Below are positions 14,216 through 64,000 of a DNA stretch of 64,000 nt, in pieces. Numbering within the stretch: the stretch's first letter is position 1; every line of letters begins with the position of its first letter. The translations under genes were made by a program, and so were the position numbers. This DNA comes from Haloplanus rubicundus. GTDB taxonomy: Archaea; Halobacteriota; Halobacteria; Halobacteriales; Haloferacaceae. The notes under the pieces are model-generated. The model was not told the origin of the DNA. It saw nothing but the letters and a program-made list of their open reading frames with translations, and ran no database searches. The DNA lies in the NCBI RefSeq assembly GCF_003342675.1, contig NZ_CP031147.1:124001-188000 (forward strand), given 5' to 3'.

Positions 14216-14321
14216 AATCACGGTTGGGGAGCCATTCATCGGTGAGACCATCATCATTCGTTGACTTGGGCTAGGGCCCACGATTCCCGGGGGTTCAGTT
14301 CCAGCAATTCTGGGATGAAGT

Positions 14322-15838: not shown

Positions 15839-15841
15839 TAC

Positions 15842-16228: not shown

Positions 16229-16547
16229 CGTCAGTCACCAAGACTTCGTCAGCATGGTTCTCGATCAGCGTGAGGAAGGTCTCAACCTCGTCGTACTGAG
16301 GGCCCTTCATAACCGCTCCAGTTTCCCGATTCCAGTCGATATATCCTGCCGCCTCTAACTTTGGGAGGTGGACGTGATACAGTTCAATCTCCGAGCTGTC
16401 CAGAGCGTCTGGCCCCTGGAATGGCTCCAGCCTATCGTCTCGCTTCAGCCTGTAAAGTATCTCCCGCCGCTGTTGCTTCGATAGGACTTCCATGATACGA
16501 TCCACCTTCGAAGACGCGAACACGTCGGGCGGTCCCTTGTCAGTCAT
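16221..16547 (-). CDS. ArsR-like winged-helix regulator (DUF7344-like)
   Basis: 108 aa from ATG 16547 (MTDKGPPDVF). The pattern VDRIMEVLSKQQRREILYRL (about 16-35), then ELYHVHLPKLEAAGYIDW (about 54-71), and a final helix with DEVETFLTLI is the haloarchaeal DUF7344 winged helix. These act as DNA-binding transcription regulators. It overlaps the HEAT-repeat gene by 8 bp and the glycohydrolase-stub gene by 8 bp, so it is co-transcribed and could control the operon. A longer in-frame start at 16616 would lie inside the upstream gene and is not needed. Confidence 0.75.
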   Translation of the reverse strand: MTDKGPPDVFASSKVDRIMEVLSKQQRREILYRLKRDDRLEPFQGPDALDSSEIELYHVHLPKLEAAGYIDWNRETGAVMKGPQYDEVETFLTLIENHADEVLVTDDE

Positions 16548-18333: not shown

Positions 18334-20492
18334 CAGTCACTCACCTCGCGCGGCGTCGCGGGCGCCTGCTGACACAGTGTTTCCAGGAGTTCCACCTCCT
18401 GCTGCATCGACTCATCATCCACAGCCGCCATCTCATCTGCGAGGTAGCTGCGAAGCTGGTCGAATCGCTCGGTATATCGATCAGGAACGACCAGCGGTAC
18501 GGACTCGCGCTCGTGCTGGCCACGCTGGTCGGGGAGCAACCAGTCGTCGACGCCAGTCGCAGCGTCAGCGCGATCGTGGAGGTCAGCCGCCCACGTCCGG
18601 AGTTCGCGAGCGTATCTAGCCAGCGCGACGGCCTTCCGGACGCCCTCATGGGCATATGTACCGGACTCGTTGGAAACGTCGACGGTGACGCGCTCGGTGT
18701 ACTCGCCACCGTCCCGTTCCGTCCACGAGGCGACCAGATCCAGATCGGCATCCTGGCTCGTCTGCTCGAGGCGGACGAGGACGACGCCGCCCCGAGCTTC
18801 GCCATCCTGCTTTGCGGAGGGGAACAGCGTCCCGACGTGCATCAAGCGGTCGGTCGCGGCGTCCGCGGACGGCGATCCGTGGACTGCCTCGATCTCGTAG
18901 CCGTCCGCGTCGAGATCGAGGTTCAGGTCGTACACCAGCGGGGTGACCATGTAGTCGAACTCCTCGCCCAGCCGACGCTCGAACTCCGCGGTCGAGTGGA
19001 CGAAGTAGTGATTCGCCCCGCGGATGCCCGACAGGGTGTCCGCCAGCTCCGCATTCGCATCCAGCCCCATGCCGATGAACGTCGTGTGGACACCCTCGGC
19101 GGCCGCGTCCGCGAACAGCTGCGTGAGTTCGCTGTCCCCCGTCGTCCCCGTGTTCGGCATCATGTCGGTCATAAAGACGACACGGCGCTCGACGTCAGGA
19201 CTGGGCGTCCCGTCGACCAACATGTCGACGGCCGCCTCGAATCCGTCCGCGAGGTTCGTACTGCCGCCAGCAGCGATCTCGCGGATGTGGCGACGGATCG
19301 CCGGCATGTCAGTCGTTCCGACGTCACGGAGCGGCTTCGCGACGTGGGCGCGGTGGTTGTAGAGGACGACGCCCAAGCGGTCCTCGGCGTGGAGCTGCTC
19401 GGTGAGCGCGCACAGCGACTGAGTTGCCGCTTCGAGTTTCGTCGCCGCATCGTCCTCGGCCTCGCGCTTGCGCCCGTGTTCGTCGTAGTAGTACGCGTCG
19501 AAGGAGCTGTCCATCGACCCAGAGACATCAAGGACGGCGACGAGATCCAGCCGCGGCCGCTCGAACTCGTCGACCGAGAGCGTCGAATTCAGCCCGACCG
19601 ACAGGTAGCGCTCGGTCTCCCCACTGATCGGGTGGTCGCTCACGGCGGCCGCGTAGCGCGGTGCGAACAGGGCCTCGGACTCGGTCCGCGTGCCCGTCTC
19701 GAAGTGATAGTCGTAGAACAGCCCCTCGTCGCTGATCGCCTCCGGCTGTGGCGTATACCCGTTCGCGACGTTTTCCCGAAAGTTGGCCACGTCTTTCGCC
19801 CCGCCAGCGGCGAGTCCGACTGTCTCCGGGCTCGCCATGTCCGCACTTGCTGGCGCCGGTGATGCACTCTCCATCACCTGGTTTTCGAGCATCTGATCGG
19901 CCTCGGCGGTCTCCCGAAGTTCGTACGCGTCGACGTGGTGCCCACAGGACTCACAGACGTAGTCGGGTGGGGTGACCGACCTGTCGTCGTCCATCGGCAT
20001 CCAGTCGTCGACGAGCGAGCGGTCCTCCCGAACGCGACGAACAGTCGCTCTGGCATCGATTATTCCGAACGGTTCGTCGAGAGAGAGCTGTGACGCGGCT
20101 TGCGTGACGGCTGCTCCAGCTGCATCGACGACCTGTCCTGGTCGAAGCCGTCCTCCGCAATCAGGGCACTCTGGACCGATGTCGTCTCCTGAGGAGACGG
20201 GAACCGCGCCCAGCAGCCCCGAGATGCAGTGGGTTGCCCCGATTTTCAGGCTCTGGAGTGCCTCGCTGTCAGGTGTGGCAAGTACCGTGAACTGCCGCCC
20301 CGATTGATCGGCGACCAGCAAGCGGTGGACGTGTTCTCCGTCGCAGTCGATGGCTTCCCGGGTGATGAATTCGACTGCGATATCGTGACGCTTCCCATCC
20401 TCTATGTCCGCGTACGTCGTATCCATAGTGTCTGTTTGGCCTGCCATTCCCCGGGCAGCCAGCGGGTAATTGACGACGGTGTGTTCGTTCAT
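18333..20492 (-). CDS. von Willebrand factor A protein with N-terminal zinc-ribbon region
   Basis: 719 aa; the first gene of the long minus-strand run. Residues 30-100 look like a small beta-rich domain, followed by two CX2C pairs (CPDCGGRL, about 124, and CESCGHHV, about 180) likely to bind zinc. The vWA domain begins near 308 with the MIDAS motif AVLDVSGSMDSS; the Thr (GGSTNLADGF) and Asp (FMTDMMPN) MIDAS positions follow. A C-terminal region of about 200 aa is mixed and helical. vWA proteins bind partners through a metal, often with AAA+ or HEAT proteins. No signal peptide or membrane segment, so cytoplasmic. Alternative starts at residues 16 and 23 exist. Confidence 0.82.
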   Translation of the reverse strand: MNEHTVVNYPLAARGMAGQTDTMDTTYADIEDGKRHDIAVEFITREAIDCDGEHVHRLLVADQSGRQFTVLATPDSEALQSLKIGATHCISGLLGAVPVSSGDDIGPECPDCGGRLRPGQVVDAAGAAVTQAASQLSLDEPFGIIDARATVRRVREDRSLVDDWMPMDDDRSVTPPDYVCESCGHHVDAYELRETAEADQMLENQVMESASPAPASADMASPETVGLAAGGAKDVANFRENVANGYTPQPEAISDEGLFYDYHFETGTRTESEALFAPRYAAAVSDHPISGETERYLSVGLNSTLSVDEFERPRLDLVAVLDVSGSMDSSFDAYYYDEHGRKREAEDDAATKLEAATQSLCALTEQLHAEDRLGVVLYNHRAHVAKPLRDVGTTDMPAIRRHIREIAAGGSTNLADGFEAAVDMLVDGTPSPDVERRVVFMTDMMPNTGTTGDSELTQLFADAAAEGVHTTFIGMGLDANAELADTLSGIRGANHYFVHSTAEFERRLGEEFDYMVTPLVYDLNLDLDADGYEIEAVHGSPSADAATDRLMHVGTLFPSAKQDGEARGGVVLVRLEQTSQDADLDLVASWTERDGGEYTERVTVDVSNESGTYAHEGVRKAVALARYARELRTWAADLHDRADAATGVDDWLLPDQRGQHERESVPLVVPDRYTERFDQLRSYLADEMAAVDDESMQQEVELLETLCQQAPATPREVSD

Positions 20493-48244: not shown

Positions 48245-49609
48245 ATGGCTGTCTTGGACGACCTCTCTGGATTCGAGTTCGAGGATTTGATGGAGGACGT
48301 GTTCCGCAACCTCGGCTACGAGAACGTCCGCCAGGCTGAACGAACGGCTGACGAGGGTCGAGACGTACTGATGGAGGAGGTCGTCGACGGCACCCGTCGG
48401 GCGGTTGTCGTTGAGTGTAAGCACACGGGAACCGTCGGGCGACCGGTCGTCCAGAAGCTCCACTCGGCCATCGCTACGTTCGATTTCGACGGTCCCAAAC
48501 GCGGGATGGTCGTCACGACCGGCCGGTTCACGGGGCCTGCCGAGGAGTACGCTGCACGCCTCCAGCAGAACGACGATCCTTATCCCATCGAACTGATCGA
48601 CGGCGCAGATCTCCGGGAAATAGCCGACGAGATTGGCCTCGATCTCTACAACGGCCGGATCGAGATTCTCTGTGACGAAACACTCCGACCGTACGATCCG
48701 GCAGCCACTGTCGACGCGCCCGTTCAGGAGGCGTTCCGCGACATCGAAAACATCGAGGCCGCCGGTCTTCCGGCGCCACACTCGCAGGTGACGTTTCGGC
48801 CGGTGGTCGCGATCACCGCCGATACGAACGCTGTCTTCGAGACGTCGGTGGGCGTCATCCACCGGATCAACGACCGCACACAATTCGTCGTCCACGCTGA
48901 ACGCGGACATCCACGGGTGGCCGACGACGACATCGCGACGCTGGTGACCGAGAGCTTCCACACGACGGTTGACCTCGACGCCGATCGATTCGAAGACGTG
49001 TTCGACGAGATTTCGGAGCGTCGGTTCGGCCAGACACAGACCGAGTACAAGGAGTGGGCTGTCGACCGCCTTCGGGACTACCACACGACGACGGTAACCT
49101 ACACTGGCGACAACAACGTCACGTACAACAAGACCTGTGAGCCGAATCTCTCGGACATCTCTGTGCAATCGATTGAACCGGTGTATCTTCCTGAGGTTCG
49201 CCATACGACCGAGATACAGGAGTACACCTACCCCTACGAATACTACGCGGCGGGACCCTCGCGAGTGACGACCGAGGATGGAATTCATCGCTGCGTCCAC
49301 TGCGAGACGAGCGGCGTCGACGAGACGTACACCTACTGTCCGAACTGCGGGGCGATTGCCTGTGGCAGCCACATCAAGACCGAACGGCTGGAAGGGGAGC
49401 CGGTCTGTACGGGCTGTGCGGTCACGGAGCGATTCGCGTTGAAGACGAAGTACTTCTACGACGAGGAGAATCTCGAGGCGTTCCGCGAGGAGTACGCCGC
49501 GATGCCGATTCACGAGAAGGCGATGGAGAACAAGCTCCTCGCTGGAGGCGGCTTGATCACGATGGTGCTGGTTATTCTAGCTTTACTCGTGCTGGGCGGT
49601 ATCGTCTGA
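48245..49609 (+). CDS. Mrr-type restriction endonuclease with zinc ribbon and C-terminal membrane helix
   Basis: 454 aa. FEFEDLMEDVFRNLGYENV (about 10-28) opens an Mrr_cat PD-(D/E)XK domain; TADEGRDVLMEEV (about 35, Asp) and RAVVVECKHT (about 51-60, ExK) supply the catalytic residues. A long middle region (about 150-340) is beta-rich and unfamiliar. Near the end CVHCETSGVDETYTYCPNCG, a further CGSH and CTGC form zinc sites (about 350-395), and the last 25 residues (LLAGGGLITMVLVILALLVL) are a transmembrane helix. Membrane anchoring of an Mrr nuclease is unusual. It could act on DNA entering the cell. Single gene. Confidence 0.8.
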   Translation: MAVLDDLSGFEFEDLMEDVFRNLGYENVRQAERTADEGRDVLMEEVVDGTRRAVVVECKHTGTVGRPVVQKLHSAIATFDFDGPKRGMVVTTGRFTGPAEEYAARLQQNDDPYPIELIDGADLREIADEIGLDLYNGRIEILCDETLRPYDPAATVDAPVQEAFRDIENIEAAGLPAPHSQVTFRPVVAITADTNAVFETSVGVIHRINDRTQFVVHAERGHPRVADDDIATLVTESFHTTVDLDADRFEDVFDEISERRFGQTQTEYKEWAVDRLRDYHTTTVTYTGDNNVTYNKTCEPNLSDISVQSIEPVYLPEVRHTTEIQEYTYPYEYYAAGPSRVTTEDGIHRCVHCETSGVDETYTYCPNCGAIACGSHIKTERLEGEPVCTGCAVTERFALKTKYFYDEENLEAFREEYAAMPIHEKAMENKLLAGGGLITMVLVILALLVLGGIV

Positions 49610-50397: not shown

Positions 50398-50967
50398 TCA
50401 CGCATCGAGGCGTTGGAGCAATTGCGTGACGTAGGGACTATTCTCCCAACTACGATGCGGGCTGATCGTCGTAATCAGTGTGCTCGCTTCTTCCGTGGTC
50501 AGATGCCCATTCCGGGCGTAGTCCACGATCAGCCGCGGTGTCGGGACGATCCGTGGCCCCTGTAGTACGGTGTGGATGAGGGGGAAGTTCGTCCCGCCGA
50601 ACTCGTCGGTGAGAAACCCGTCCACGTCGAGCGCATTCGCGAGGACGATGCCATCGGTTTCGCCGTCGTCGAGGCCGAAGGTCGGCCGTGAGTCTGGCGT
50701 ATCGTCGCGCTCGTATGGATCCTCGACCGTGTAGTGGCTGCGGGCTGCGAGGACGTTGTTCGCGGCTGCGCCGTGGATATCCTGATACTGTGTGATGTCG
50801 CGGAGTTCGGTCACGACTTCCGGTGGGACGAACACTTCACACGAGGTGAGGAGATACTGGAATGGGTCTGAGGTGCCGGTATCGACGGCTGCGTCGGCCC
50901 GAGGCACGACGAGACTGACGAGTGCGCTGGTGTCGGCGACGACCGTTCGCAGTCGCTGGCCGCTCAT
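50398..50967 (-). CDS. PIN-domain toxin (VapC-like)
   Basis: 189 aa. TVVADTSALVSLVVP (about 8-22, first Asp), VFVPPEVVTELRDI (about 45-58, Glu), LDDGETDGIVLANALDVDGF (about 99-118, two acidic residues) and LTDEFGG (about 120, Asp) give the full PIN set, in the VapC order. These RNases cut tRNA or rRNA. Its start overlaps the upstream RHH gene by 4 bp (ATGA), the usual arrangement with the antitoxin first. Confidence 0.8.
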   Translation of the reverse strand: MSGQRLRTVVADTSALVSLVVPRADAAVDTGTSDPFQYLLTSCEVFVPPEVVTELRDITQYQDIHGAAANNVLAARSHYTVEDPYERDDTPDSRPTFGLDDGETDGIVLANALDVDGFLTDEFGGTNFPLIHTVLQGPRIVPTPRLIVDYARNGHLTTEEASTLITTISPHRSWENSPYVTQLLQRLDA

Positions 50968-51329
50968 CGATCGTCGTCAGCGGTGTCGATTGCCGTCGCG
51001 TCGCCATCGTAGATGTCAACGTCGTCGGGGGCAGCGAGATCGAGTGGCTCGTCCTCGAGGTCCGCTTTGAGAAGCCGGAGCCGCTGGGCGGTCTCAGCGC
51101 CGACCAACTGCTTGACCGTCTCGAACTCAAGCTGGTCGTCGTAGTACTTGGTCGCGACGAGTTCTTGGAACGTCTCACTATCGGCGGTATCTTCGATGTA
51201 CTCGCGAATTGCCTCGACAAGCAAATCCGTCCGATCCTTGTCGAAGAGCTCCGCGATCGCGTCCAGCCGGTCGACGAGATACTCCGGCGACTGGAAGTGC
51301 ACTCGTCGCGGATCGTCACTCGCACTCAT
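50964..51329 (-). CDS. Ribbon-helix-helix antitoxin of the PIN pair
   Basis: 121 aa from ATG 51329 (MSASDDPRRVHFQSPE). RRVHFQSPEYLVDRLDAIAE then LFDKDRTDLLVEAIREYIED (about 8-47) is a ribbon-helix-helix DNA-binding unit; the acidic C-terminal half (LEDEPLDLAAPDDVDIYDGD) would wrap the toxin. The longer frame to 51416 is rejected. Expected to repress its own promoter in 51330-51420. Confidence 0.75.
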   Translation of the reverse strand: MSASDDPRRVHFQSPEYLVDRLDAIAELFDKDRTDLLVEAIREYIEDTADSETFQELVATKYYDDQLEFETVKQLVGAETAQRLRLLKADLEDEPLDLAAPDDVDIYDGDATAIDTADDDR

Positions 51330-51427
51330 TCTATGTGCAAGTTCTGCACATAGTTGCATAACGGTTTCGGCGACTGCACAGAGCTTGCACATCAGAGCAC
51401 TTGGAACAGGACTCACTCACGCCAGTC

Positions 51428-51805: not shown

Positions 51806-53197
51806 ATGGACCTACCGATCGGACCTAGGGCGACTCACTTACTGGAAACGTGGGGGGTCGTCGCAGAGGCAAATCCAACTGGCCCAGCATACGATCTCAC
51901 ACACCCAACGCGTTCAGCTCAGTACCGAGAGCGCCTAGAGATGTTCGTCGAAGAACCTTCAGAATCGAATTTCGAAGCGCTCTGGAACGAACAGGTACTC
52001 GCATCCGCGAGTGAGTGGTTTCCGAGTACCGCCCGCAGTCTCTGGTCCGGTACGCTCGAAGACCTGGCCGTATTTTTCGACGAGATTCGAACAAGCGGGC
52101 AGTACGACGACTCATGGGCACAGCGAGTTAGCTGGGGACAGGTCATCCCCGAACTCTACTCGAGGGGACGCGACGGCCCCATCGTGAGCCAACAGGCACG
52201 GAACGGTCTCCGTAAATTCGGCATCGACCCTGCCAGCGATTTCGACGAGGTTGTCGACCAACTCACGTCGTTCGAAGAGTTCTATCGCGATATCTCCGGT
52301 CACGTGACAGCATCGACCACCAAACCGATTCCCATCTACGAAGAGATCGACCAGTTATTTGCTCTCGTTACGACGGCCACACAAGAGGATATCAGCGCCG
52401 AGGCATCCGGTCCACGAGATGAACTTTACTCCGCTCTCCGTGGCTATCCCGCTTCGTCGGCAACGGATCGTGGCCCGATCGAGATCGACTTCGAGGCAGC
52501 GACCCCAGCTATCGACGGCCATATCGCGGCGCGTCGAAATGATGCCTACGCTGACTTGGAAACCGATCACTGGGCTGGCGGACACTACGAAACGTGGAAG
52601 TGGGACTTCGCTGCGTATATCGCGAACGATGTCGCGAATGCGTACCAACTCACGGATCTGTCGGCCGACGAGATTGAACCCTTCTTCGATGCCTTCTGGA
52701 CCAATTCGGACGAGTACACTGACACGGACATGCTCTCGACTCCCGTGCCGCAGTATCTGCTTGGACGGTGGGGTGTCGTCCAACTTGGCGATTTCCGGGA
52801 GACGTGTGAAGAGGATCCGGAGCGAGCTGCGGCCGTTCTCTCGATGCTCTTTTCGGAGGACGAACATCTGGTCGACCGACTGGAGCAGTTCTACGAGTTC
52901 GCGGCGAGTGACAACGTTTCCGACGGGAACTTGCTCCGCATCGCGTCGACGCTACTGATGGGTGTCTATCCCGACGACTACGTGAACTTCCAGTACCAGC
53001 GATTCGAGACGTTCTTCAGTAACTGCAGTAACGCCGAGTCCCTGGAGACCGGATTCGACGCTCGCCAGTACTATCGGATCGTCCTCGCCTGCCGTGACCT
53101 TCGGGATGCGATGCAATCGGAACTCCCCGATGCGTCGATGCTCGATGTCCACACCCTAATTCGACTCTATCAGGACTTTCGTGACGACTCCGAATGA
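51806..53197 (+). CDS. Unknown protein, first gene of the PLD/GIY-YIG cassette
   Basis: 463 aa from ATG 51806 (MDLPIGPRATHLLETW). Helical and acidic all through. Segments such as PQYLLGRWGVVQLGDF (about 310-325) and LRIASTLLMGVYPDDYVNFQ (about 375-394) recall the N-terminal helical domains of McrB-like defence proteins, but no ATPase or nuclease motif is present. The stop overlaps the start of the next gene (ATGA), so both are made together. Not identified. Confidence 0.65.
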   Translation: MDLPIGPRATHLLETWGVVAEANPTGPAYDLTHPTRSAQYRERLEMFVEEPSESNFEALWNEQVLASASEWFPSTARSLWSGTLEDLAVFFDEIRTSGQYDDSWAQRVSWGQVIPELYSRGRDGPIVSQQARNGLRKFGIDPASDFDEVVDQLTSFEEFYRDISGHVTASTTKPIPIYEEIDQLFALVTTATQEDISAEASGPRDELYSALRGYPASSATDRGPIEIDFEAATPAIDGHIAARRNDAYADLETDHWAGGHYETWKWDFAAYIANDVANAYQLTDLSADEIEPFFDAFWTNSDEYTDTDMLSTPVPQYLLGRWGVVQLGDFRETCEEDPERAAAVLSMLFSEDEHLVDRLEQFYEFAASDNVSDGNLLRIASTLLMGVYPDDYVNFQYQRFETFFSNCSNAESLETGFDARQYYRIVLACRDLRDAMQSELPDASMLDVHTLIRLYQDFRDDSE

Positions 53198-55626
53198 TGG
53201 GGAAGGCGGTTTGCGTTCGCTCCTCCAAATACGGATTCAGCGAAAATCTGCGACCCCGAAGAAATCGAATCAAATCCGTATCTAGGGGAGTCGAGTTGAG
53301 TGACTTCCCTCCTGAAGCGGGTCAATTTGTCGATGGTGAGCTGTTGATGCCTGTGACTGAGCGTTCATTCTGTGGTGAGCAAATCGAAGCACGACCCTGG
53401 AATGAATTCGAAGTTAATCTGGGGTGTGATCACTACTTCGAGATCGAATCCTCCATCACATTTAGTAGATATCCTGACAGTCGCTACTTCATGGAATGGG
53501 CGACGACCATCAATCTGGGGGGATTTGGGAATGCAGCCGAGATGGAATGGGAAACCGTCAAGAGTTGGGATTCGTTCACGGAGTTCTTTGAGGGGGCAGT
53601 CCACATAGATGCGGTCACCTACTGCGAATCTCCCGAATTGCTTCTTGATCTGTTCGAACAGCATGACGGAAAACTGGAGTCGATGGATGTCCTCGTCGGG
53701 AATCGCGAGGAGTATCAGTCGTCCGTCGACGACGTAACTGTCGCGCGGCAGTTGCAACGATACTACCGCGAGGACAAACTGATTGTCCGCCTCAAAAACA
53801 GGAAAGTCGTCCACTCCAAACTCTATCGGATCGTCAAGGACGGCGACGAGGTGACACTCATCTCGGGGAGTGCAAACCTCTCGTACAACAGTTGGAAGAA
53901 CCAGACGAACAGCGTCGTCGTGTTTCGGACAGAAGTCGACTCACAGTTGGACCAACAGTTCAAGACGTGGATCGACGACCACCGTGAACAGTACGCCGAT
54001 ACGGTGTTCATGGAGGATCTAGTGGCGGAACTGGAGGCACTTGACGATCAAGAGGAGAAGGATCGACGAATCGAACTGTGGATCGATAACCGGGACACAC
54101 AGTTGACAGAACGAGGTGAGATTCACTCGAACGTCGGCCAGGAGTTGGAGGAACTCGGGCAGGAAGTCGATCGAGTCGTCGGCGTCACGGACGACCCGGA
54201 AGCGGCCGATGAGGTCGTTACGATTCAACACGAGGAGGTAGGGGTGGAAATCGACGACGAATCGAACGGCTCTATGGAGGCTGATGATAATGAGCAGTCG
54301 TCGACAGGCGTTACCGGCGCCAAGACACCGGAGTATACGATCACGCTGCCCACTCAGGGATTCGAGACCGATGGGTATCTCGACCGAGTAAAAACTGATC
54401 TGAAGCGTCGTGGTGCGGACGTTGGGTCCGACGCCATCACCACCTCCGTGGAAGGGTACACCAACTACCTCCAGACACGCTACGACGTGCCGAAGATGTG
54501 GGTGGACGAAGAGAACTGTCGCGTCCACCTCCAACACGGCGAACACCACCGAATCCTGACGGCGGATCACGAGCCCTCACCCGAAGTGCTCAATGCCGCA
54601 CTCCAGAATATCCAAGATTATATCGAGACCATTGATCGGTGGGGGGAGACGAATAATGCCCGAGCTGTCAAGGCCCACATGTACGAGGGGATCCTCTACG
54701 GACTGTGGGCGCCGTTTGTGAACCTCTACGCGCGCCAGTTCTACGGTAACGTCACGCTCGATAACGCCCTCCAATATCTCTACATCTTCGGCGAATCTGA
54801 TGCTGGCAAGGACAAGTTCTCGGAGTTCGTGTTGCGATTGATCTCCGACGATCTGGTACGAGGCGGGGCAGACGCCGACGATGTGGGCAAAAATCAGATT
54901 CGGGCGCTTCGTGACCTAGATACGGTCTTCCCGTACGTTGTTTCGGACATCGCCAAACAGAAAATCGAGCGGGTCGACACGCTACGGAACTTCTGGCAGG
55001 ATTCGTGGCACCCATCAAACGACATCTCCTATCCGACGCTCATCTTCACCAGCAACGACTCCCGGCCGAACGACTGGTTCCGCAACCGGGCGAAGATGCT
55101 CCACTTCGATGTTGCCTTTCCCTCGAATCCTGAGGACGAAGGCTTCTACGAAGCACAGGAAGACCTGAACGAGATTCTCGATGCAACCAATCCGATCTTC
55201 GCGTACGTATCTCGGCGTATTTTGGAAGACGAGATGTATCTCGATGCTGGCGGGACGGTCGACGACGTGCGACGGATCTTCCTTGATTTCTACGACCGAC
55301 TGGATCGGGAACGGCCGAAGTACTTCCCCGAGCGGCCCGCGAATCGCCGCTACAATATTGGAAAGCGCAAGTGGCGACAGGCATTCCACCGGGACGATGT
55401 GACCTTCGAACGCCGAGAGAACCATCTCATCGCTGATTTCGATTTGGAACCGCACGAACTGTACAGCTATCGAAAGACGCTTCCCACGAAGATGCGCCCC
55501 GAAAAGAGCGGTCGCAACATCATCGTTAAGAATCCCGATGACTTTGAGGAGTGGTTGGAGATGGACGATCTGCGTGCGGACGATGAGGAAGCAAGCGGAG
55601 GACTCCTGCAGCGACTATTCCGGTAG
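53194..55626 (+). CDS. PLD-type nuclease fused to a P-loop ATPase (SF3-like)
   Basis: 810 aa. Residues 1-90 are a variable N-terminal region. Residues 90-250 form a phospholipase D-like domain with VVHSKLYRIVKDG and LISGSANLSYNSWKN (about 203-235), the HxK...GSxN signature; only one such half is seen, so a dimer would be needed for catalysis. A coiled, acidic linker follows (250-370). Residues 370-810 hold a helicase-like P-loop domain: YIFGESDAGKDKFSEFVLRL (about 529-548, Walker A with Asp before Lys), FPYVVSDIAKQK and PTLIFTSNDSRPNDW (sensor 1-like Asn). The fusion of PLD nuclease to a viral or plasmid type ATPase is uncommon. It sits between the unknown gene and the GIY-YIG gene. Confidence 0.7.
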   Translation: MMGKAVCVRSSKYGFSENLRPRRNRIKSVSRGVELSDFPPEAGQFVDGELLMPVTERSFCGEQIEARPWNEFEVNLGCDHYFEIESSITFSRYPDSRYFMEWATTINLGGFGNAAEMEWETVKSWDSFTEFFEGAVHIDAVTYCESPELLLDLFEQHDGKLESMDVLVGNREEYQSSVDDVTVARQLQRYYREDKLIVRLKNRKVVHSKLYRIVKDGDEVTLISGSANLSYNSWKNQTNSVVVFRTEVDSQLDQQFKTWIDDHREQYADTVFMEDLVAELEALDDQEEKDRRIELWIDNRDTQLTERGEIHSNVGQELEELGQEVDRVVGVTDDPEAADEVVTIQHEEVGVEIDDESNGSMEADDNEQSSTGVTGAKTPEYTITLPTQGFETDGYLDRVKTDLKRRGADVGSDAITTSVEGYTNYLQTRYDVPKMWVDEENCRVHLQHGEHHRILTADHEPSPEVLNAALQNIQDYIETIDRWGETNNARAVKAHMYEGILYGLWAPFVNLYARQFYGNVTLDNALQYLYIFGESDAGKDKFSEFVLRLISDDLVRGGADADDVGKNQIRALRDLDTVFPYVVSDIAKQKIERVDTLRNFWQDSWHPSNDISYPTLIFTSNDSRPNDWFRNRAKMLHFDVAFPSNPEDEGFYEAQEDLNEILDATNPIFAYVSRRILEDEMYLDAGGTVDDVRRIFLDFYDRLDRERPKYFPERPANRRYNIGKRKWRQAFHRDDVTFERRENHLIADFDLEPHELYSYRKTLPTKMRPEKSGRNIIVKNPDDFEEWLEMDDLRADDEEASGGLLQRLFR

Positions 55627-55711
55627 TGCAGAGGAGTACGCTGAAATTTGGTCGACATAGAGGAGAGTGGTTTCGAACCCCGTCAACAGTCAACGGAGTA
55701 ACTCACCCCGA

Positions 55712-55719
55712 AGATTATA
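55712..55719 (+). promoter_or_regulatory. TATA box of the GIY-YIG gene
   Basis: ATTATATT lies 24-31 bp before ATG 55743, the normal distance for a leaderless haloarchaeal transcript. This supports the shorter start over GTG 55626. Confidence 0.5.
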
Positions 55720-55742
55720 TTGAGTACCCTCGAAAATCTGGT

Positions 55743-56558
55743 ATGAACATTTCCGCCCTTACTCACTCATTTCAATTCGTGGATTCTATCTCAGTGGATC
55801 GGAACGAGGCGGGGTCAGTCGATATCAAGATGCCACAACGGCGCTACGAGAAGGCAGATGAGTATCACGTCCATCGCTACGGTTGGGGGCCGTTCTGTGG
55901 ATTCTCTGTAGATACAACAGATTACGTCGGGGTCGAAGGTGTCTACCTATTCACTGCGGGATACGAAATCAAGTACGTCGGGGAAACGGTTGATATCCAC
56001 AATCGGATTGGATCAGGATACGGGAATATCTCTCCCAGAAATTGTTTCGAGGGAGGGCAACAGACAAACTGTCGGATCAACCACCTTATCTTGGAGACGG
56101 TCCGTAACGGGGACCAAGTCGCTCTTTGGGTTGAAGAGACGGAGAATCGAAAGCTTCGTGAAACGGAATTGATTGAGCAGTGTGATCCCCCGTGGAACAA
56201 GACTTCAGCGACGTCTCCAAGTGTGACTATCCAGCAACCAGGTTCCCAAAGTCCGGAATCTCAATCGACAAACCAAAGCGATAGTTCGTCGTCAGTCGTC
56301 GCTACCGAACAAACGAGGAACGGAAAGTACGCACCACTGTATGACTATTTAGAAACTATCGAATCCGATCGCTTCCATCTCTCTATGGACGAAATCGAGG
56401 ACATAATCGAAGCCCCACTTCCGGCATCGGCAAAAAAATACCCACAGTATTGGCGTTCGAGCAGTCAGGCCCACGCGAAAGTATGGGCCGAACTTGGTTG
56501 GGAAGCGAACCCCGATTTTGACGATATGTCCGTCACTTTCGAACGGGTGGAAGAGTAG
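55743..56558 (+). CDS. GIY-YIG nuclease with C-terminal DUF7662-like domain
   Basis: 271 aa from ATG 55743 (MNISALTHSFQFVDS); GTG 55626, overlapping the previous stop, is possible but less likely given the TATA box. GVYLFTAGYEIKYVGETVDI and HNRIGSGYGN (about 70-99) carry the GIY-YIG motifs, the Arg and a Tyr; the Glu lies in RKLRETELIEQ (about 145). The C-terminal part starting NGKYAPLYDYLETIESDRFH and containing SAKKYPQYWRSS, WAELGW resembles DUF7662, a small domain often attached to nucleases. Third gene of the PLD cassette; possibly DNA cleavage in defence. Confidence 0.7.
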   Translation: MNISALTHSFQFVDSISVDRNEAGSVDIKMPQRRYEKADEYHVHRYGWGPFCGFSVDTTDYVGVEGVYLFTAGYEIKYVGETVDIHNRIGSGYGNISPRNCFEGGQQTNCRINHLILETVRNGDQVALWVEETENRKLRETELIEQCDPPWNKTSATSPSVTIQQPGSQSPESQSTNQSDSSSSVVATEQTRNGKYAPLYDYLETIESDRFHLSMDEIEDIIEAPLPASAKKYPQYWRSSSQAHAKVWAELGWEANPDFDDMSVTFERVEE

Positions 56559-56647: not shown

Positions 56648-58231
56648 CTACCGGAGTCCGGCCGTCGGGTCATCGTCAAACGGATCTTCGGGAACTGGGT
56701 CGAACTCACTCGAATCGTTCAGATCTCTATCGGTGATCGGCTCGATTTCGGTATCTGTCCTCTCCGTGGCAACCCCTGCAGAGGGGAAGTCCTCGATGGA
56801 GATTTTCCGTGCGTCCCGCCGTGCAGCTTGGCGCTTCGCATCCGTGACTAATTCCTCGATGTCGGCGCCGCTGCAGCCGGCAGTGTGTTTCGCCAGCGTC
56901 GCCAGTTGGTCGCCGGTGAGTTCGTGCGGCACGTCCTCAAGCTTCGCTTGGAGAATCGCGTGTCGGCTCTCTTCCTCGGGCAGTCCAATCTCGATATGCG
57001 ACGCGAGCCGTCCCGGCCGGAGGATCGCGGGGTCGATATCCTCTGGCCGATTGGTTGCGCCGACGACAATGGCCGTTCGATCCCCAGCGGTGAGATGAAC
57101 GAGCAATTCGCTGGTGATTTTTCGATCCTCAGCGTGGGCGCCGCCGGCACCGACATCCCGTCCGCCGAAGAGGTGTTCGGCCTCGTCGAGGAAGATAACG
57201 CAAGGGCCGACAGCGGCAGCCTCCTCGAATAAGTGGCGCACTCGCTGTGGCCCTTCGTTGATCCACTTGCTGGTCACATCCGCCGGCCCCAACTCGACGA
57301 ATGGGACGTTGAGTTCGCCGGCGAGCGCTCGGGCGAACAGCGTCTTGCCTGTCCCTGGTGGACCATGGAACAGGATTCCTCGTACGGGCTCGATCCCGAA
57401 GCGATCATAACGGTCGTCTCCGCGTGCCCTCGCCCGCGTTGGCTGGAGGACCTCCTCGGCGAGTCGCTCTTTGACATCGTAGTAGCCGCCGATGTCGTCG
57501 AAGCCGACGTCCGAACGAGTCCAGTTGTACTCGTAGTCTGGAGTATCCAGGGCTTTTGCCGCGACCCGTGAAGCTTCTGGGTTGGTCGCGTCAGCGATCT
57601 TTTCAGAGGAATCTGAGTTGGTCACCCGGGTCTCTGAACTGTCGGGTTCAGTTCGTCCATCGTCCATAATCTCGCGAAATTTCTCGTAATCGACGGACGG
57701 CTGGTGGTACTCTCCAGTGGCGTAGTAATAGCCGTTCTCTCCTCGTGGGTCGTAGAACGTCAGAGCAACGAACGAAGCAGCGATTCCCAGTCCGAGTGCC
57801 GCCTGGATTTGTGGACTATTCGGACTGACGTTACTCAGGAAACTCAACTGCGAGACAGAGACGAAGGAGGATGCCAGCGTCAGACCCTCCGTGAGGAGTA
57901 AGAGCACCACGAACAATTCGTACACCTGTGCGAACGGGTACAGTCCGATGTCCGCTATCGTTCTCAGACCCGGAACACCGAGACCTCCTGCGATGAAAAC
58001 GAATAGAAGAGCGAACCCCAGTCCGACAGCGGCAGTTGGCGGCAGATTAAGCAATGGTGCGATCAACCACATATGGACGTACGCCAGCGCAGTCAACGCA
58101 AGCATGAAGAACAACCGGTAGAGATCCCGCTTCCGGTGTTCCCGTTCCATAATTCGATAGGTCGCATACTCCACTATCGCGAAGAATCCGAGGAAAGCGG
58201 CGACGGAGAGCGCAGTACCGAGAAAACTCAT
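56648..58231 (-). CDS. Membrane-anchored AAA+ ATPase (FtsH/Cdc48-like core)
   Basis: 527 aa from ATG 58231 (MSFLGTALSVAAFLGF). Five or six transmembrane helices fill residues 1-170 (for example FFMLALTALAYVHMWLIAPL). The cytosolic AAA+ core has FDDIGGYYDVKERL (about 253), Walker A FHGPPGTGKTLFARALAG (about 287), Walker B CVIFLDEAEHLFGG (about 342) and NRPEDIDPAILRPGRL (about 392) with arginine fingers. No zinc protease domain follows, so it is not FtsH. The C-terminal tail is acidic. It stands just before the conjugation genes on the same strand and may remodel the transfer machine. Confidence 0.8.
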   Translation of the reverse strand: MSFLGTALSVAAFLGFFAIVEYATYRIMEREHRKRDLYRLFFMLALTALAYVHMWLIAPLLNLPPTAAVGLGFALLFVFIAGGLGVPGLRTIADIGLYPFAQVYELFVVLLLLTEGLTLASSFVSVSQLSFLSNVSPNSPQIQAALGLGIAASFVALTFYDPRGENGYYYATGEYHQPSVDYEKFREIMDDGRTEPDSSETRVTNSDSSEKIADATNPEASRVAAKALDTPDYEYNWTRSDVGFDDIGGYYDVKERLAEEVLQPTRARARGDDRYDRFGIEPVRGILFHGPPGTGKTLFARALAGELNVPFVELGPADVTSKWINEGPQRVRHLFEEAAAVGPCVIFLDEAEHLFGGRDVGAGGAHAEDRKITSELLVHLTAGDRTAIVVGATNRPEDIDPAILRPGRLASHIEIGLPEEESRHAILQAKLEDVPHELTGDQLATLAKHTAGCSGADIEELVTDAKRQAARRDARKISIEDFPSAGVATERTDTEIEPITDRDLNDSSEFDPVPEDPFDDDPTAGLR

Positions 58232-58476
58232 CGAATCATCCGAAGGATATCCTCTGAAGGTTCGCGAGGGGGCGAGCGTGGCGGTTGGCACCGGCGAGCC
58301 GTGCTGGGGGTGTGGTCATGCGAGCCGCGCGATGGTACAGCCATCGAGAACGGAGCGGACAGAGGCGCTCGCGATGGTCTATGTTTGTTTCATGGTGGGG
58401 ATCGAATATAACTTCTCGCCAATCTTCCCTGAACTGGCTTGAGCACTCAGTCAGTACTGAGGCGTCGCGTATTGAC
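58232..58476. other. Intergenic between the AAA+ and VirB6-like genes
   Basis: 245 bp, no credible gene. It should hold the promoter of the AAA+ gene (minus strand). Confidence 0.35.
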
Positions 58477-60459
58477 TCATATCGTCTCGGAAGGCCCCTC
58501 TCCGGTGTCATCGTCCCACGGGGAGTCCGTAGCCTGCCCGGGGCCATCACGCTGCGTTGACCAGTCGATGTCGGCATCTTCTGCAGAGCCATCCGACTGA
58601 GGATTGTTTCCGGGACCAATGAGGTGTTTTCCGCCGCGCTTGCCGATTTGGTGGGCTGCGTAAGGGCTCCGTGTCATCGCTCCTGCGAAGACAATCCCAC
58701 TGGCCTTTCCCGCCTGAACACCGGCTTTCCCGATCCGCTTGCCAGCTCGGCCGGTTGAGACAGTAACTTGACCCGGCGCTTTCGCGGCGACTTGGGCGGT
58801 CCTGATCCTTTTCACACTCCGGGCCGATCTCGAAGCGTTCTCTCTGAGCGATTGTGCCTCCTCGCTGAATTGCTGGGCCCTGTTGTTGATGTTCATCGTC
58901 GTCTCCTCACCCGCCGAGGTTTCGTAGGTTACCGTCCCGTCGGCATCCGGGACTACTGTCGAGATCCCCTCCGCAGGTTGATCACAGTCGGTCAGGATGC
59001 CGCGGTCGGCTGCCTCGGCGACATCGAACTCGCCGCTCTGATACGCCTCGGTCAAGAAGTCGCGGTTCGAATCCGCCTCGGCAGCGGCATCCATCTGCTG
59101 AGAAATTGTTCTCCGATGTGTGTCGATACTCTCAGAACCGACTATCCTTCGAGCACTGGCTAGACTAGTTTCCTTTGCTCTAGAGCCCAGACTTTTGACT
59201 GCTCCTCCGGTTCTACTCGCTGTCGCTTGGGCTGCCTGTACCCTGGGAATTTCTGTCGTCTTCCGCCACGCGTAGTCTTTAGTTTTGGAGAGTGCCCCGG
59301 GTGCCGTATCCACGCTGTCCTCAGCAGGCGGCTCACGCGTACTGAGCGCGTCCGAGATACTGTTTCGCATCGTCCCGCCGACGCTCGAGTTGGCAGTTCC
59401 TGCTGAAGGGTCGGTCGCCGTCCCACCTGACGACCCACTCCCAACAGAGCTGCCACTTCCGGCACTCGACCCACCGGCCCCGCTTGCTCCATCAGCCGAG
59501 GACTTCGAGGCACTGCTCACGGCACCGGAGCCTGCACCGGCGCCGACAGCAACCGCCCCAACCCCAGTGGCGGCGATTGCGGCAGCTACGGTCGTCGTGA
59601 ACGCGGCGTCGACGCCGAGGGGCTGGCCGGCCCAGCCGATGGTCTTCCAGATCGTGACGAACAGAATGATCGGGAAGATCAGCGCCAGCGCCGAGGCCGT
59701 GTAGAACGAGGCAATATCACCCGAACTGGCGACGCCCCCAGTTGCAATCACATCGAACACTCGCATCACGAGCGCGATGATCGGGCCCACTAACAGGGCG
59801 TACACGCCCATCCGAAGCCACGTCGAGGCGAACCTGCTGATCGCCTTCATCGGTCCCCAGTTCGCATACCAGAGGACGGCGAAAAACGGCGCGCCTACCG
59901 CGACTGTGATTACGATGAACTGCCGGAGGACGAGTAACACCGAGGAGAGAATGGTTGCAAAGAGCATCAACGGGACAGCCACCGCGAGCGCGACGAGTTG
60001 AATTCCCGTGCCGAGGGTTGCCCCCCAACTCCCGCCGAGATCGGCGTCGAAGGTGAGTTCGAACGCCGCTGGGGCGAGGGCATTCGTCACGCCATTCGAC
60101 GCCTCGATCAGGAACCCAAACAGCGGCTTCGAGATGGCAATGAAGACGATGACGGCAACGATCCGGGCGACCATGTTCCACAGCGTCGCCTCCTGATCCT
60201 CACTAAACGGCATCACGATGAGCCCCGCCGCAATAAGGATCGGGAGCAGGGCTATGGAGAGTTCGAACACACTGTCCCACGCGTCGACAAACTGGGCGTC
60301 GGTCAGGATAGTCGGGTTGATCGTGAGCAGTGGCTTCAGCCCGAAATTGAACATCACGTTGATCGCCCCAACCAGGAGCGAGCGGAGGAACTCGATGATC
60401 GCTCGGACAATCGCATCCGGAAGCCAACCAAGGTCCAAGAGGTCAGCCACGGCACTCAC
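58477..60459 (-). CDS. VirB6/TrbL-like conjugation membrane protein
   Basis: About 660 aa from GTG 60459 (MSAVADLLDLGWLP); GTG 60450 and ATG 60495 are alternatives. Residues 10-300 contain six to eight membrane helices (LLPILIAAGLIVMPF, IVAVIVFIAISKPLFGFLI, LVALAVAVPLMLFATILSSV, MGVYALLVGPIIALVM), followed by an Ala/Gly/Ser-rich low-complexity stretch (about 305-370) and a long soluble, helical C-terminal half. This arrangement, together with the VirB4-like gene directly upstream, marks it as the polytopic channel component of a type IV secretion-like apparatus. The end lies about 245 bp before the AAA+ gene. Confidence 0.75.
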   Translation of the reverse strand: MSAVADLLDLGWLPDAIVRAIIEFLRSLLVGAINVMFNFGLKPLLTINPTILTDAQFVDAWDSVFELSIALLPILIAAGLIVMPFSEDQEATLWNMVARIVAVIVFIAISKPLFGFLIEASNGVTNALAPAAFELTFDADLGGSWGATLGTGIQLVALAVAVPLMLFATILSSVLLVLRQFIVITVAVGAPFFAVLWYANWGPMKAISRFASTWLRMGVYALLVGPIIALVMRVFDVIATGGVASSGDIASFYTASALALIFPIILFVTIWKTIGWAGQPLGVDAAFTTTVAAAIAATGVGAVAVGAGAGSGAVSSASKSSADGASGAGGSSAGSGSSVGSGSSGGTATDPSAGTANSSVGGTMRNSISDALSTREPPAEDSVDTAPGALSKTKDYAWRKTTEIPRVQAAQATASRTGGAVKSLGSRAKETSLASARRIVGSESIDTHRRTISQQMDAAAEADSNRDFLTEAYQSGEFDVAEAADRGILTDCDQPAEGISTVVPDADGTVTYETSAGEETTMNINNRAQQFSEEAQSLRENASRSARSVKRIRTAQVAAKAPGQVTVSTGRAGKRIGKAGVQAGKASGIVFAGAMTRSPYAAHQIGKRGGKHLIGPGNNPQSDGSAEDADIDWSTQRDGPGQATDSPWDDDTGEGPSETI

Positions 60460-60534
60460 CTTCCAGTATCGGTGACAGCGACGTCGACCAGACACACGGT
60501 CGGGGGAATCGGCTCTCGGTGAGTGGTGGCCGCA

Positions 60535-62910
60535 TTACTGATCCTCCCCGCGGTCAGATCGGTGGTCATCAGCAACTGCTCCGTTGCTCGCCCCGGTGGC
60601 ATCACTCTCCACTCCCCGGACATCGGCGCTGATGCCGTCCTCGTGGGATTCCTGCATCGCCATTTCGAGATCCATGTCCCGGTTCATCACGTGGGGGAGG
60701 TCGGCCAGTTCGAGTTCCGTCAGGAGAACGTCATCCTCTGGGTTGTTGCCGGAAACGACACCGTCGATCTCCGCCAACCACTCCCGTGGATCAAGCGTAT
60801 CGTCGAGGACGTGATGCTCGAACGGGCCGCTTCGCACCTCTAGCCGGCGGCGGCCGTGGACGCTGGTCGCGAGCAGGCACTCCGAGTAGTTCGAGTCCTG
60901 CCCGCGGGCGGCTGACTGGATGAACCGGATCTCGTCACTCGACAGCCCGTAGTACTGCTGGGTCTGTTCGGAAACCGATTCGGCGTAGAACAGGCACTTC
61001 ACGTCACAGTTCTCGTAGACCTCGCGGCGTTCGTTCGTCCGGACGAATTCGTGAGAGGTCTGACTCATCAGCGTCAGGCCGGCCTCGTAGTGCCGAGCAT
61101 GACGGATGTACAGGTTGATGAGATCCCGCGCTGCCGGTCGACCCAGCAGGTAGTGGGCTTCGTCGAACGTAACGTCCACCTTGTAAGGTGAGCGCTTGGC
61201 TTCGAGATAAGCCCACGAGAGCATGGCGTGGAGGATGAGTGGCATCTCGCCGGTGTCGGCGAACGAGCTCATATCCATCACGACTAGTCGCGAGGAGAGG
61301 TCGAGATTCGTCTGGCCGTTCAGATTGTGATTGATGCCGCCGGGTTTGAACGACTCGAACTTCGGCTGGAGATTCCGTGCCAGCTCCTGGTGGTGATTGG
61401 TCGGCGTGACGATCGTATCCGAGATCGAGATCCCGCTACCGTCCGAGGACTCGCCTGTCGGCTGCTCACCGTCCTCCCCGACTTCGGTCACTCCGTAGGA
61501 CTGGAACAGATCGAGTTCGGCCTCGTCGATCACGTCCGCCTCGCGTGCCGCCTCAAGCCCGCCGGCAGCGATCACGGTGACACCGCGAATCAGATCATCG
61601 AGCGTGGGTGACTCCCGAGCGTAGGTCTCGTACTCGCCGAGGATGATGCCCTTCGAGATGTAGGCGTAGTGGGCGGCCTGGATGAGCACGCCCTCCTCGC
61701 CGGCCGACATCCCATCGCGCTGATCGAAGTGGGTGTGCAGCATCTCGATCACCGATCGGATGGTGAGTGCGTAGGTGTCGTCGCCCGTCTCCTGCTCGGC
61801 CGTCGCCGGCGGTGAGATGTCCATCGGATTGACGGTGTAATTCCCACCAAAGCGGATCACTTCGCCGCCGAGAGACTGTGCGAACCGCGGGTAGTCGTCG
61901 CCGGCGGGATCGAACAGGATACACTGGACGTTCGCATCCGCGAGCAGGCGCCGGTAGATCTCCAGCTTGCGGAAGTAGCTCTTGCCTGACCCTGTCTTCC
62001 CCGAAATCGCCATCGAGTGCCCGGAGAGTGCATACCGGTTCAGGATGACGGGGCGCTTGGTGTCGTCGAAGCCCAAGAGCACGCCGTTCGGGTCGTAGAT
62101 CGAGGGCTCGACGAGATTGAAGAACGTCCCGAGTGCTTCGAGTTGGATCGGGTGGGTGTTGTCGACGGGATCGGTCACCACCGGGGTGATAGCGTCCATC
62201 GCGTCGAGTTGCTGGTGTTTCACCGGACTCAGTTCGACATCCTGCTCGGCGAGGATCGCTTCCACCCGGTCGAGCATCCCGTCCAGGTCGTCTCGGGAGT
62301 CGGCGACCAGTTCGAGGTAGATCGCCACGTCGTACAGCTTGGTCGTGCCGCGGATAGTCCGCTGGAGTAGGCGTTCGAGGTCCTCGCGGTCGAGTTGGTC
62401 TTGATAGGTATCGGTCCGGCCGCGTTTTTGCTTCAGCGCAAGCGAGGTGACCGCCTGCGTGTAGCGCTTCTGGAGCTGCCGGCGAACGTCCTTCGGTTCC
62501 CGTGGCCGGACGTGAAACGTCAGTCGGAGGTCGACATCGGCGAGCGTGAGTGGCACGAGCCATCCGAGACCCACTTTCCGGGGGAGCGAGGTGACGGTCA
62601 GGATCTGTGAGACGGTGCCGTCGCGGATCTGGAATTGCGGGTGATCCTCGACGAGCCGAGGAGCGACGATTCGCTTGTCGAGTTCGCCCCGCTCTTCGAG
62701 GGTCTCCATCGCGTTCGCGAGCCCAACCTCGTCAGCCTGTAACTGGTAGGCGGCCCACTCGATGTTCTCGGTGGTGGTCTCGCGGTCGAGGAGGTGCAGG
62801 TAGTCGATGGCGTGCTGCGTCTCCTCGCCGGACAGGTCGTCGATTGGGACGGCTTCGACGCCGTCATCGGGCCCGTCGAGACCGAGCGCGTGTTTGAGTC
62901 GCTGGATCAT
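60535..62910 (-). CDS. virB4: VirB4-like type IV secretion ATPase
   Basis: 791 aa. N-terminal 250 residues form the mixed VirB4 domain (VSQILTVTSLPRKVGLGWLV, LRLTFHVRPREPKDVRRQLQ). Then the HerA/VirB4 ATPase: Walker A AISGKTGSGKSYFRKLEIYR (about 300-319), ILFDPAGDDYPRFAQSLGG (about 325), Walker B KVDVTFDEAHYLLGR (about 583) and LTLMSQTSHEFVRTN (about 612) as the motif III/sensor region. It powers DNA or protein transfer at the membrane. It has a 75-bp gap to the VirB6-like gene and lies 66 bp behind the next membrane protein gene; all are in one operon. Confidence 0.88.
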   Translation of the reverse strand: MIQRLKHALGLDGPDDGVEAVPIDDLSGEETQHAIDYLHLLDRETTTENIEWAAYQLQADEVGLANAMETLEERGELDKRIVAPRLVEDHPQFQIRDGTVSQILTVTSLPRKVGLGWLVPLTLADVDLRLTFHVRPREPKDVRRQLQKRYTQAVTSLALKQKRGRTDTYQDQLDREDLERLLQRTIRGTTKLYDVAIYLELVADSRDDLDGMLDRVEAILAEQDVELSPVKHQQLDAMDAITPVVTDPVDNTHPIQLEALGTFFNLVEPSIYDPNGVLLGFDDTKRPVILNRYALSGHSMAISGKTGSGKSYFRKLEIYRRLLADANVQCILFDPAGDDYPRFAQSLGGEVIRFGGNYTVNPMDISPPATAEQETGDDTYALTIRSVIEMLHTHFDQRDGMSAGEEGVLIQAAHYAYISKGIILGEYETYARESPTLDDLIRGVTVIAAGGLEAAREADVIDEAELDLFQSYGVTEVGEDGEQPTGESSDGSGISISDTIVTPTNHHQELARNLQPKFESFKPGGINHNLNGQTNLDLSSRLVVMDMSSFADTGEMPLILHAMLSWAYLEAKRSPYKVDVTFDEAHYLLGRPAARDLINLYIRHARHYEAGLTLMSQTSHEFVRTNERREVYENCDVKCLFYAESVSEQTQQYYGLSSDEIRFIQSAARGQDSNYSECLLATSVHGRRRLEVRSGPFEHHVLDDTLDPREWLAEIDGVVSGNNPEDDVLLTELELADLPHVMNRDMDLEMAMQESHEDGISADVRGVESDATGASNGAVADDHRSDRGEDQ

Positions 62911-62976
62911 GGCTGAAGGGGGGTGCTTGGCGTAGCGAGGGGTGGTCGAGCGTGGTGTTGTCCCCGAGGACGGGTC

Positions 62977-64000
62977 TCAGCCATCGCTTGCCTCCGTGCG
63001 AGCCCCGGTATCCTCGGACACGGGTGGCGCCTCTTGCGCTGGAGCATCGTCGACGTGGTCGAGGGCAACTCGGCGTGATCGAACGGCGAAGCCAACCGCC
63101 ACGACGAGGACGAAGAGGCCGGCGGCGTACACCGGCACCACCACCGCCGTCTGACCGGTTGGGGTGCTGGTCCACTGAGCCGGGTAGGCCGCCTCGAATA
63201 GCGCGATTGCCGCGGCCGCCACACCGACTCCGAGGACGGAGAGGCTCTTCGCAACCTGCCGTGAGGGGAGTAGCACGACCAGACTCAGCAGGAAGGTCGG
63301 GAGGCTCCCGGCGGCGAGACCGAAGGAAACCTCCCGTACCAGGAGGGGTGGGGCGTCGACGGGAAGCTGCTGGGCACTCCCGAGGAACGCACCGAGCGCG
63401 ACGATCGCGAGGACGAGGCTGGCGACGAACGTGCCCGTGCCGAGGTAGACCGACGCCGGCGAGTGGTAGGTCTCGCCGCGCCCGATCGGTCCGACGCTCC
63501 GGACGTACCACTGGAGAAGGCGCGAGCCGTCGACGGCTTCGACGTACTCCGCTTGGACGCGCCCGTCGTATGGGAGGTCACCGACTGTCTCGGGGCGGTC
63601 CTCCGGTTCGGACTCTTCAGCGGCGGTTGTCGCCTCTCGGTCGGCGTCCTCGAAGATACTCTCCAGATCGAGGAGACCACCGTTGGCATCGGTGAGGGCC
63701 TCGTCTGCGACTCCGACGAGCGTACCTTGATTGAACGCGAGTGGCGGCTCCCGTCCGCGGTACACGCGGTACAGTACGTCGAGAACAGCTTCGCGGGAAT
63801 CGAGGATGTTCGACTCGACGCGAGTCCGGGGCAACTGGGACGCGACGCGCTGGGCGCGGGCCCACACCTCGTCGAGGTAGAATTCCTCGGCGTCGACGGA
63901 TCGAGAACGGGTGGGGAGCGGGAGGGCGTCGCGGACTCCGTCGAACCGGCTGCCACCTTCGCTCTCATCCTCGCCCTTTTCGACCGCAACGGCAACAAAG
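62977..64000 (-). CDS. Conjugation-operon membrane protein (5' partial)
   Basis: The frame is open to the window edge, so the start lies beyond it. About 340 residues are visible. The first half is soluble, with an acidic linker (ATTAAEESEPEDRPET). The second half has about four or five membrane helices (TFVASLVLAIVALGAFLG, LPTFLLSLVVLLPSRQ, VVVPVYAAGLFVLVVAVGFA) and a short acidic tail. It is directly upstream of the VirB4-like gene and probably part of the same secretion complex. No named family recognised. Confidence 0.7.
   Translation of the reverse strand, partial: FVAVAVEKGEDESEGGSRFDGVRDALPLPTRSRSVDAEEFYLDEVWARAQRVASQLPRTRVESNILDSREAVLDVLYRVYRGREPPLAFNQGTLVGVADEALTDANGGLLDLESIFEDADREATTAAEESEPEDRPETVGDLPYDGRVQAEYVEAVDGSRLLQWYVRSVGPIGRGETYHSPASVYLGTGTFVASLVLAIVALGAFLGSAQQLPVDAPPLLVREVSFGLAAGSLPTFLLSLVVLLPSRQVAKSLSVLGVGVAAAAIALFEAAYPAQWTSTPTGQTAVVVPVYAAGLFVLVVAVGFAVRSRRVALDHVDDAPAQEAPPVSEDTGARTEASDG

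Follow-up and report, generated by a model that had tools for sequence, protein, structure and literature searches.

A haloarchaeal AgaP homologue with a putative SF3-type motor, probably serving in defence without an Argonaute partner

The window analysed here, 64,000 nucleotides of Haloplanus rubicundus DNA, contains a gene (ORF 2) whose product joins a PLD nuclease to a P-loop domain. We think it probable that this PLD-ATPase is an Argonaute-independent DNA-degrading defence enzyme of the AgaP type, located in a defence island among unrelated neighbours. The interpretation draws on homology, on the conservation of both active centres, on the predicted fold and on gene neighbourhoods; what the window copy does is extrapolated from a relative at 36% identity. 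A defence function for the gene is well supported by its homology to AgaP, a protein studied experimentally.

The locus and its genes

Three open reading frames occupy the plus strand at 51806-53197, 53194-55626 and 55626-56558, exactly where the earlier note had placed them. With the starts of the second and third revised as explained below, the features of the locus are:

51806..53197, plus strand: ORF 1, free-standing two-half helical module
53460..53472, plus strand: TATA-like, AT-rich sequence ATTTAGTAGATAT, a putative element about 19-31 nt ahead of the proposed start at 53491
53491..55626, plus strand: PLD-ATPase gene (ORF 2), homologue of AgaP; 711 aa when counted from listed-ORF Met100
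55743..56558, plus strand: ORF 3, GIY-YIG endonuclease region and DUF7662, proposed start ATG 55743
55941..56207, plus strand: GIY-YIG region of ORF 3, listed-ORF residues 106-194, phrog_1111
56328..56510, plus strand: DUF7662 of ORF 3, residues 235-295, Pfam 8e-9

The true start of ORF 2 is probably the ATG at 53491 (Met100 of the listed ORF) rather than 53194, because relatives with 62-82% identity begin at or close to Met100, with the common motif M(E/D)W(S/T)T..INLGGFG (subject to small variations), and because the 99 codons ahead of it lack both the acidity of the gene and its codon bias (GC3 of 0.51 versus 0.70). By the same reasoning, ORF 3 probably starts at ATG 55743, since its relatives align only from residue 26-38 onward (the sixth best from residue 8) and its first 39 codons have a lower GC3 (0.38 versus 0.54). 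A TTATAT sequence is found 28 nt upstream of this ATG. Judging from the starts of relatives and from codon bias, the 4-bp overlap between ORF 1 and ORF 2, previously taken as a feature of the genes, is probably an artefact of the ORF listing. The revised starts would thus leave gaps of, probably, 293 bp between ORF 1 and ORF 2 and 116 bp between ORF 2 and ORF 3, and ORF 2 and ORF 3 could possibly each be preceded by a promoter of their own.

ORF 1 had no family match in Pfam, PADLOC or NCBIfam and a single marginal match in PHROGs; PADLOC models gave weak matches only for the other two ORFs, and a sequence search of solved structures with all three produced nothing meaningful. The two halves of ORF 1 are found separately in larger proteins, in each case upstream of a GPPGTGKT AAA_5 (McrB-type) ATPase. 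For this reason ORF 1 is classed, by sequence, as an N-terminal module of the McrB type that stands on its own, and as a probable sensor. It lacks an ATPase domain, and next to it no McrC was recognised. An internal duplication was discarded, as the two halves do not match each other. In the predicted structure, residues 228-463 were best matched by SsOgg, MagIII and MutY (best Z 6.9), and a profile of ORF 1 did not match any of 30 haloarchaeal HhH-GPD sequences (E 0.25 or worse). With fold matches on one side and a negative profile comparison on the other, the idea of a HhH-GPD glycosylase-like base sensor was set aside; a HhH-GPD-like fold of the second half is hinted at by the model and constitutes a weak lead.

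For ORF 3, the description as a GIY-YIG protein with a DUF7662-like part proved correct. The endonuclease family phrog_1111 covers the GIY-YIG region (1.8e-9), a GVY...YVG motif can be read in the sequence, and the DUF7662 match is that listed above; the Pfam search reported no GIY-YIG match.

Other genes of interest surround the locus. Just upstream of ORF 1, on the minus strand (50398-51416), overlapping genes for ribbon-helix-helix-like and PIN-like proteins are possibly a toxin-antitoxin pair. On the other side, the locus adjoins conjugation-type genes on the minus strand (56648-63999), encoding a membrane AAA ATPase, a TrbL/VirB6-like protein, a VirB4/HerA-like ATPase and DUF7139. Given these genes and its size, the 225 kb contig is likely to be a plasmid or an integrated element. 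A second defence-type region, at 6123-20492, looks DISARM-related: a DrmE-like protein (PF24955/PF24957; 11496-13736) adjoins a helicase of 1143 aa, and genes for vWA and HEAT-repeat proteins lie beyond them.

Nuclease and motor of the PLD-ATPase

The motifs considered in this section are:

53812..53877, plus strand: PLD half-site HSK...GSAN, listed-ORF residues 207-228
54790..54816, plus strand: Walker A GESDAGKDK, residues 533-541; G533, G538 and K539 identical in 84/84 relatives
54937..54948, plus strand: Walker B-like VVSD, residues 582-585; D585 in 84/84
55036..55089, plus strand: sensor-1 TLIFTSN and R632; N621 and R632 each in 84/84, SF3-like arrangement

AgaP is the PLD partner of an Argonaute in Natrinema pellirubrum, where ago and agaP are co-transcribed and restrict plasmids and a virus (PMC11442185, Cheng et al. 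2024). Plasmid restriction requires the PLD centre, and virus immunity proceeds mainly through the Argonaute centre, with AgaP enhancing it; in a heterologous host, AgaP is toxic when expressed without its Argonaute (PMC11442185). The relatives of ORF 2 include the N. pellirubrum protein encoded at NC_019963.1:121396-123429. In this protein the catalytic residues are numbered H105, K107 and GSxN at 157, and this numbering agrees with that given for AgaP in PMC11442185, which identifies the protein as AgaP. The window protein aligns with it over its full length (36% identity, 711 alignment columns, E 3e-132).

The presence of a PLD half-site in ORF 2 had been proposed earlier, and Pfam matches (PLDc_2, E 3.9e-6; RE_NgoFVII, 2e-5) agree with it, as does the conservation of the HxK...GSxN motif: the H, K, S and N residues are identical in 84/84 relatives and the G in 83/84. 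Full-length homology and shared PLD residues (H, K, G, S, N) thus place the PLD-ATPase, at the sequence level, in the AgaP family. The distance between HxK and GSxN is 15 residues in the window protein and in most subgroups versus 49 in AgaP, for which a separation of about 50 residues has been reported (PMC11442185). Hence the "split motif" of AgaP is, on these alignments, an insertion peculiar to its own subgroup.

No Pfam family spans the C-terminal half of ORF 2. In the predicted structure (pLDDT 82.9), the N-terminal part (first 180 residues) matches the PLD restriction enzyme NgoAVII (4rct, Foldseek E 5e-7) as well as SauUSI (7clg) and Nuc (1byr). The C-terminal part matches the SCCmec Cch helicase (5dgk) in the region 335-671, where 251 residues superpose with a Z of 11.8 and an rmsd of 4.7, and it also matches the SV40 T antigen (1n25, E 8e-4). 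A profile of this half aligned collinearly with haloarchaeal DUF5906 SF3 helicases over 175 columns (E 9e-5, hhalign probability 59%), passing through Walker A, Walker B, sensor 1 and the arginine region. Control profiles of Rad50, McrB-type proteins and HerA covered only 18-30 columns around the P-loop; the Rad50 control scored above DUF5906 yet spans 18 columns, and an AAA_14 control extended over 86 columns with lower significance (E 0.004). From the predicted fold and this modest profile match, an SF3-type motor is the best assignment for the C-terminal half. Walker A, Walker B, the sensor-1 asparagine and the arginine follow one another in SF3 order within what the model presents as an SF3 fold. 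The helicase-like P-loop domain with GESDAGKDK noted earlier can therefore be specified as SF3-helicase-like.

Such a motor raises the question of whether the PLD-ATPase could be the relic of a replication protein, viral or plasmid-borne; a viral replication protein was what the earlier note said would speak against its proposal. Its predicted fold is like that of viral SF3 helicase/primase proteins, and relatives are carried by haloarchaeal plasmids. A viral-fold library likewise returned SF3/D5 helicase-primases and viral PLD proteins, at low TM-scores that we read as shared fold. Nevertheless, we give this explanation hardly any credence: no relative of ORF 2 was found in 50,697 phage records or in IMG/VR, a PLD nuclease with all its catalytic residues is fused to the motor in the relatives examined, and defence neighbours recur. 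A viral replication origin of the motor was accordingly rejected for want of a viral sequence relative.

Gene neighbourhoods in Halobacteria

The earlier note had viewed the three genes as a possible defence cassette. The defence role of the middle gene stands, through its homology to AgaP; the single cassette does not, the trio being confined to the window among the genomes compared, and genes that seldom occur together were an outcome that the note itself had named as refuting its proposal. In 391 Halobacteria genomes, a sample of the class, the ORF 1 family occurs in 36, the ORF 2 family in 95 (50/86 genera) and the ORF 3 family in 12; neither the trio nor the ORF 1-ORF 2 order was found in any of the other genomes, and relatives of ORF 1 and ORF 3 have different neighbours from one locus to the next. 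A congener (G391) carries ORF 1 at 82% DNA identity, with the match stopping at the end of the gene, and has neither ORF 2 nor ORF 3. Directly downstream of this lone ORF 1 relative, a nucleotidyltransferase-like and HEPN-like pair was recognised by eye (L185 8181-9045). ORF 2 is also present in 8 of the 12 genomes with ORF 3, above expectation (p 0.002) and not adjoining, and in 14 of the 36 with ORF 1 (p 0.03); co-occurrence raised this weakly is as expected of defence-rich genomes.

These data bear on whether the locus forms one dedicated restriction-type system, in which ORF 1 would recognise modified DNA, the PLD-ATPase would translocate and cut, and the GIY-YIG protein would make a second cut. 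Three defence-type genes lying close together on one strand, the occurrence of ORF 1 modules upstream of McrB-type ATPases elsewhere and the excess of ORF 2 in ORF 3 genomes are all compatible with such a system. It is nonetheless very unlikely, considering that its gene order recurs in no other genome, that G391 has ORF 1 alone and that the overlaps are start-site artefacts. On the neighbourhoods of relatives, a three-gene cassette was rejected, and ORFs 1 and 3 are read as other defence-type genes of the same island, probably transcribed separately.

The neighbours of PLD-ATPase relatives were tabulated with a simple gene caller and our own clusters, subfamilies being clusters at 50% identity. 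Argonaute was found at most 2 genes away in 20/84 loci, representing 5/10 subfamilies, and Mre11-Rad50, often with NurA and HerA, at most 8 genes away in 24/84 loci, representing 7/10 subfamilies; the respective chance expectations (about 0.01 and less than 1) are rough and ignore the clustering of defence genes in islands, and the counts include related loci that are not independent. In 6/7 tested genomes with a PLD-linked Rad50, a second, more divergent Rad50 is encoded elsewhere, which suggests that the PLD-linked Mre11-Rad50 set is mostly accessory. A further recurring partner is a UvrD/PD-(D/E)XK helicase-nuclease accompanied by a Cas4-like nuclease. One group of loci (L131 8923-17463 and similar ones) keeps the order Argonaute, PLD-ATPase, a 686-aa protein with no Pfam match, Cas4-like nuclease and UvrD-PD-(D/E)XK helicase-nuclease. 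In four others (L120, L121, L122 and L157), a ThiF-type E1-like protein (588 aa) and two small proteins are encoded directly 3' of the PLD-ATPase gene (L120 11112-13697).

The window copy adjoins neither an Argonaute nor an Mre11-Rad50 set. No Piwi match was obtained across its genome, and the accessory Rad50 gave only a marginal match there. Four relatives (L114, L115, L147 and L151) have an Mrr nuclease immediately downstream, and the window contains a member of the same cluster:

48245..49609, plus strand: Mrr-type endonuclease, same cluster as the Mrr that directly follows the PLD-ATPase at four loci

Situated about 3.9 kb upstream of the PLD-ATPase, this gene is at most a displaced partner.

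The link to Mre11-Rad50 is broader across subfamilies than the link to Argonaute, and some ORF 2 relatives are annotated as tyrosyl-DNA phosphodiesterase. Both facts would suit an enzyme of DNA repair or end processing that works with accessory Mre11-Rad50-NurA-HerA, the Argonaute link being secondary. Repair as the main role seems unlikely, given the patchy occurrence of the family (95/391 genomes), its location on plasmids (20 records) among defence-type neighbours, and the plasmid and virus results with AgaP, which point to defence. Repair and defence may, at any rate, use the same chemistry.

Proposed role and relation to known systems

Returning to the defence enzyme of the AgaP type, the presence of one half-site per chain makes it probable that two or more chains must come together to complete the PLD active site. 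The C-terminal SF3-type ATPase would form a ring, either on foreign DNA or loaded at its ends, and, presumably by translocation, drive or gate the nuclease, and invading plasmid or virus DNA would be degraded. In relatives, recognition or DNA ends might be supplied by Argonaute or by accessory Mre11-Rad50-NurA-HerA. As no Argonaute was found in the window's genome, the enzyme would have to be controlled there either by its own motor or by some further factor, for which the nearby Mrr nuclease is a possible candidate. AgaP proved toxic in a heterologous host when Argonaute was absent, and this would be a difficulty for an orphan copy unless its control differs.

More tentatively, one can picture the PLD-SF3 protein at the centre of a broader system for DNA degradation in haloarchaea that has yet to be described. 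Its SF3 motor, shaped as a ring, would pass DNA to the PLD nuclease, and the place of the front end could be taken in turn by Argonaute, by accessory Mre11-Rad50-NurA-HerA, by AddAB-like helicase-nucleases or by Mrr, the Argonaute-AgaP pair (APAP) being one version.

The family itself was already known; what is new relative to the AgaP paper is the apparent motor domain and the accessory Mre11-Rad50-NurA-HerA neighbours, the main text of PMC11442185 presenting AgaP as a PLD nuclease and making no mention of ATPase, SF3 or Mre11-Rad50. If a motor with an invariant active site is indeed joined to the nuclease, then the phenotypes of AgaP, namely plasmid loss, toxicity without Argonaute and selective suppression of viral DNA (PMC11442185), may depend on ATP-driven DNA handling. 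The recurrent Mre11-Rad50-NurA-HerA neighbours suggest that the PLD-ATPase also works independently of Argonaute immunity, the window being a case in point.

Among known systems, McrB-type AAA_5 restriction proteins contain both halves of ORF 1 as N-terminal modules; compared with McrBC, ORF 1 lacks the ATPase (McrB GTPase) domain and a recognised McrC neighbour. SCCmec Cch and D5/DUF5906-type SF3 helicases, which are replication or mobile-element proteins, resemble the C-terminal half of ORF 2 in predicted fold and motif order; to our knowledge they have no PLD nuclease part. The ATP-dependent restriction enzymes SauUSI and NgoAVII likewise combine a PLD nuclease, matching in fold, with an ATPase motor. 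Their motors are SF2 helicases, whereas that of the window protein looks SF3-type and is C-terminal to the PLD domain. With respect to APAP, the window gene has no adjacent co-transcribed Argonaute, its genome gave no Piwi match, and the HxK-GSxN spacing is 15 rather than 49 residues; the protein is nevertheless a full-length homologue of AgaP (36%), with the same PLD catalytic residues and the same C-terminal P-loop domain.
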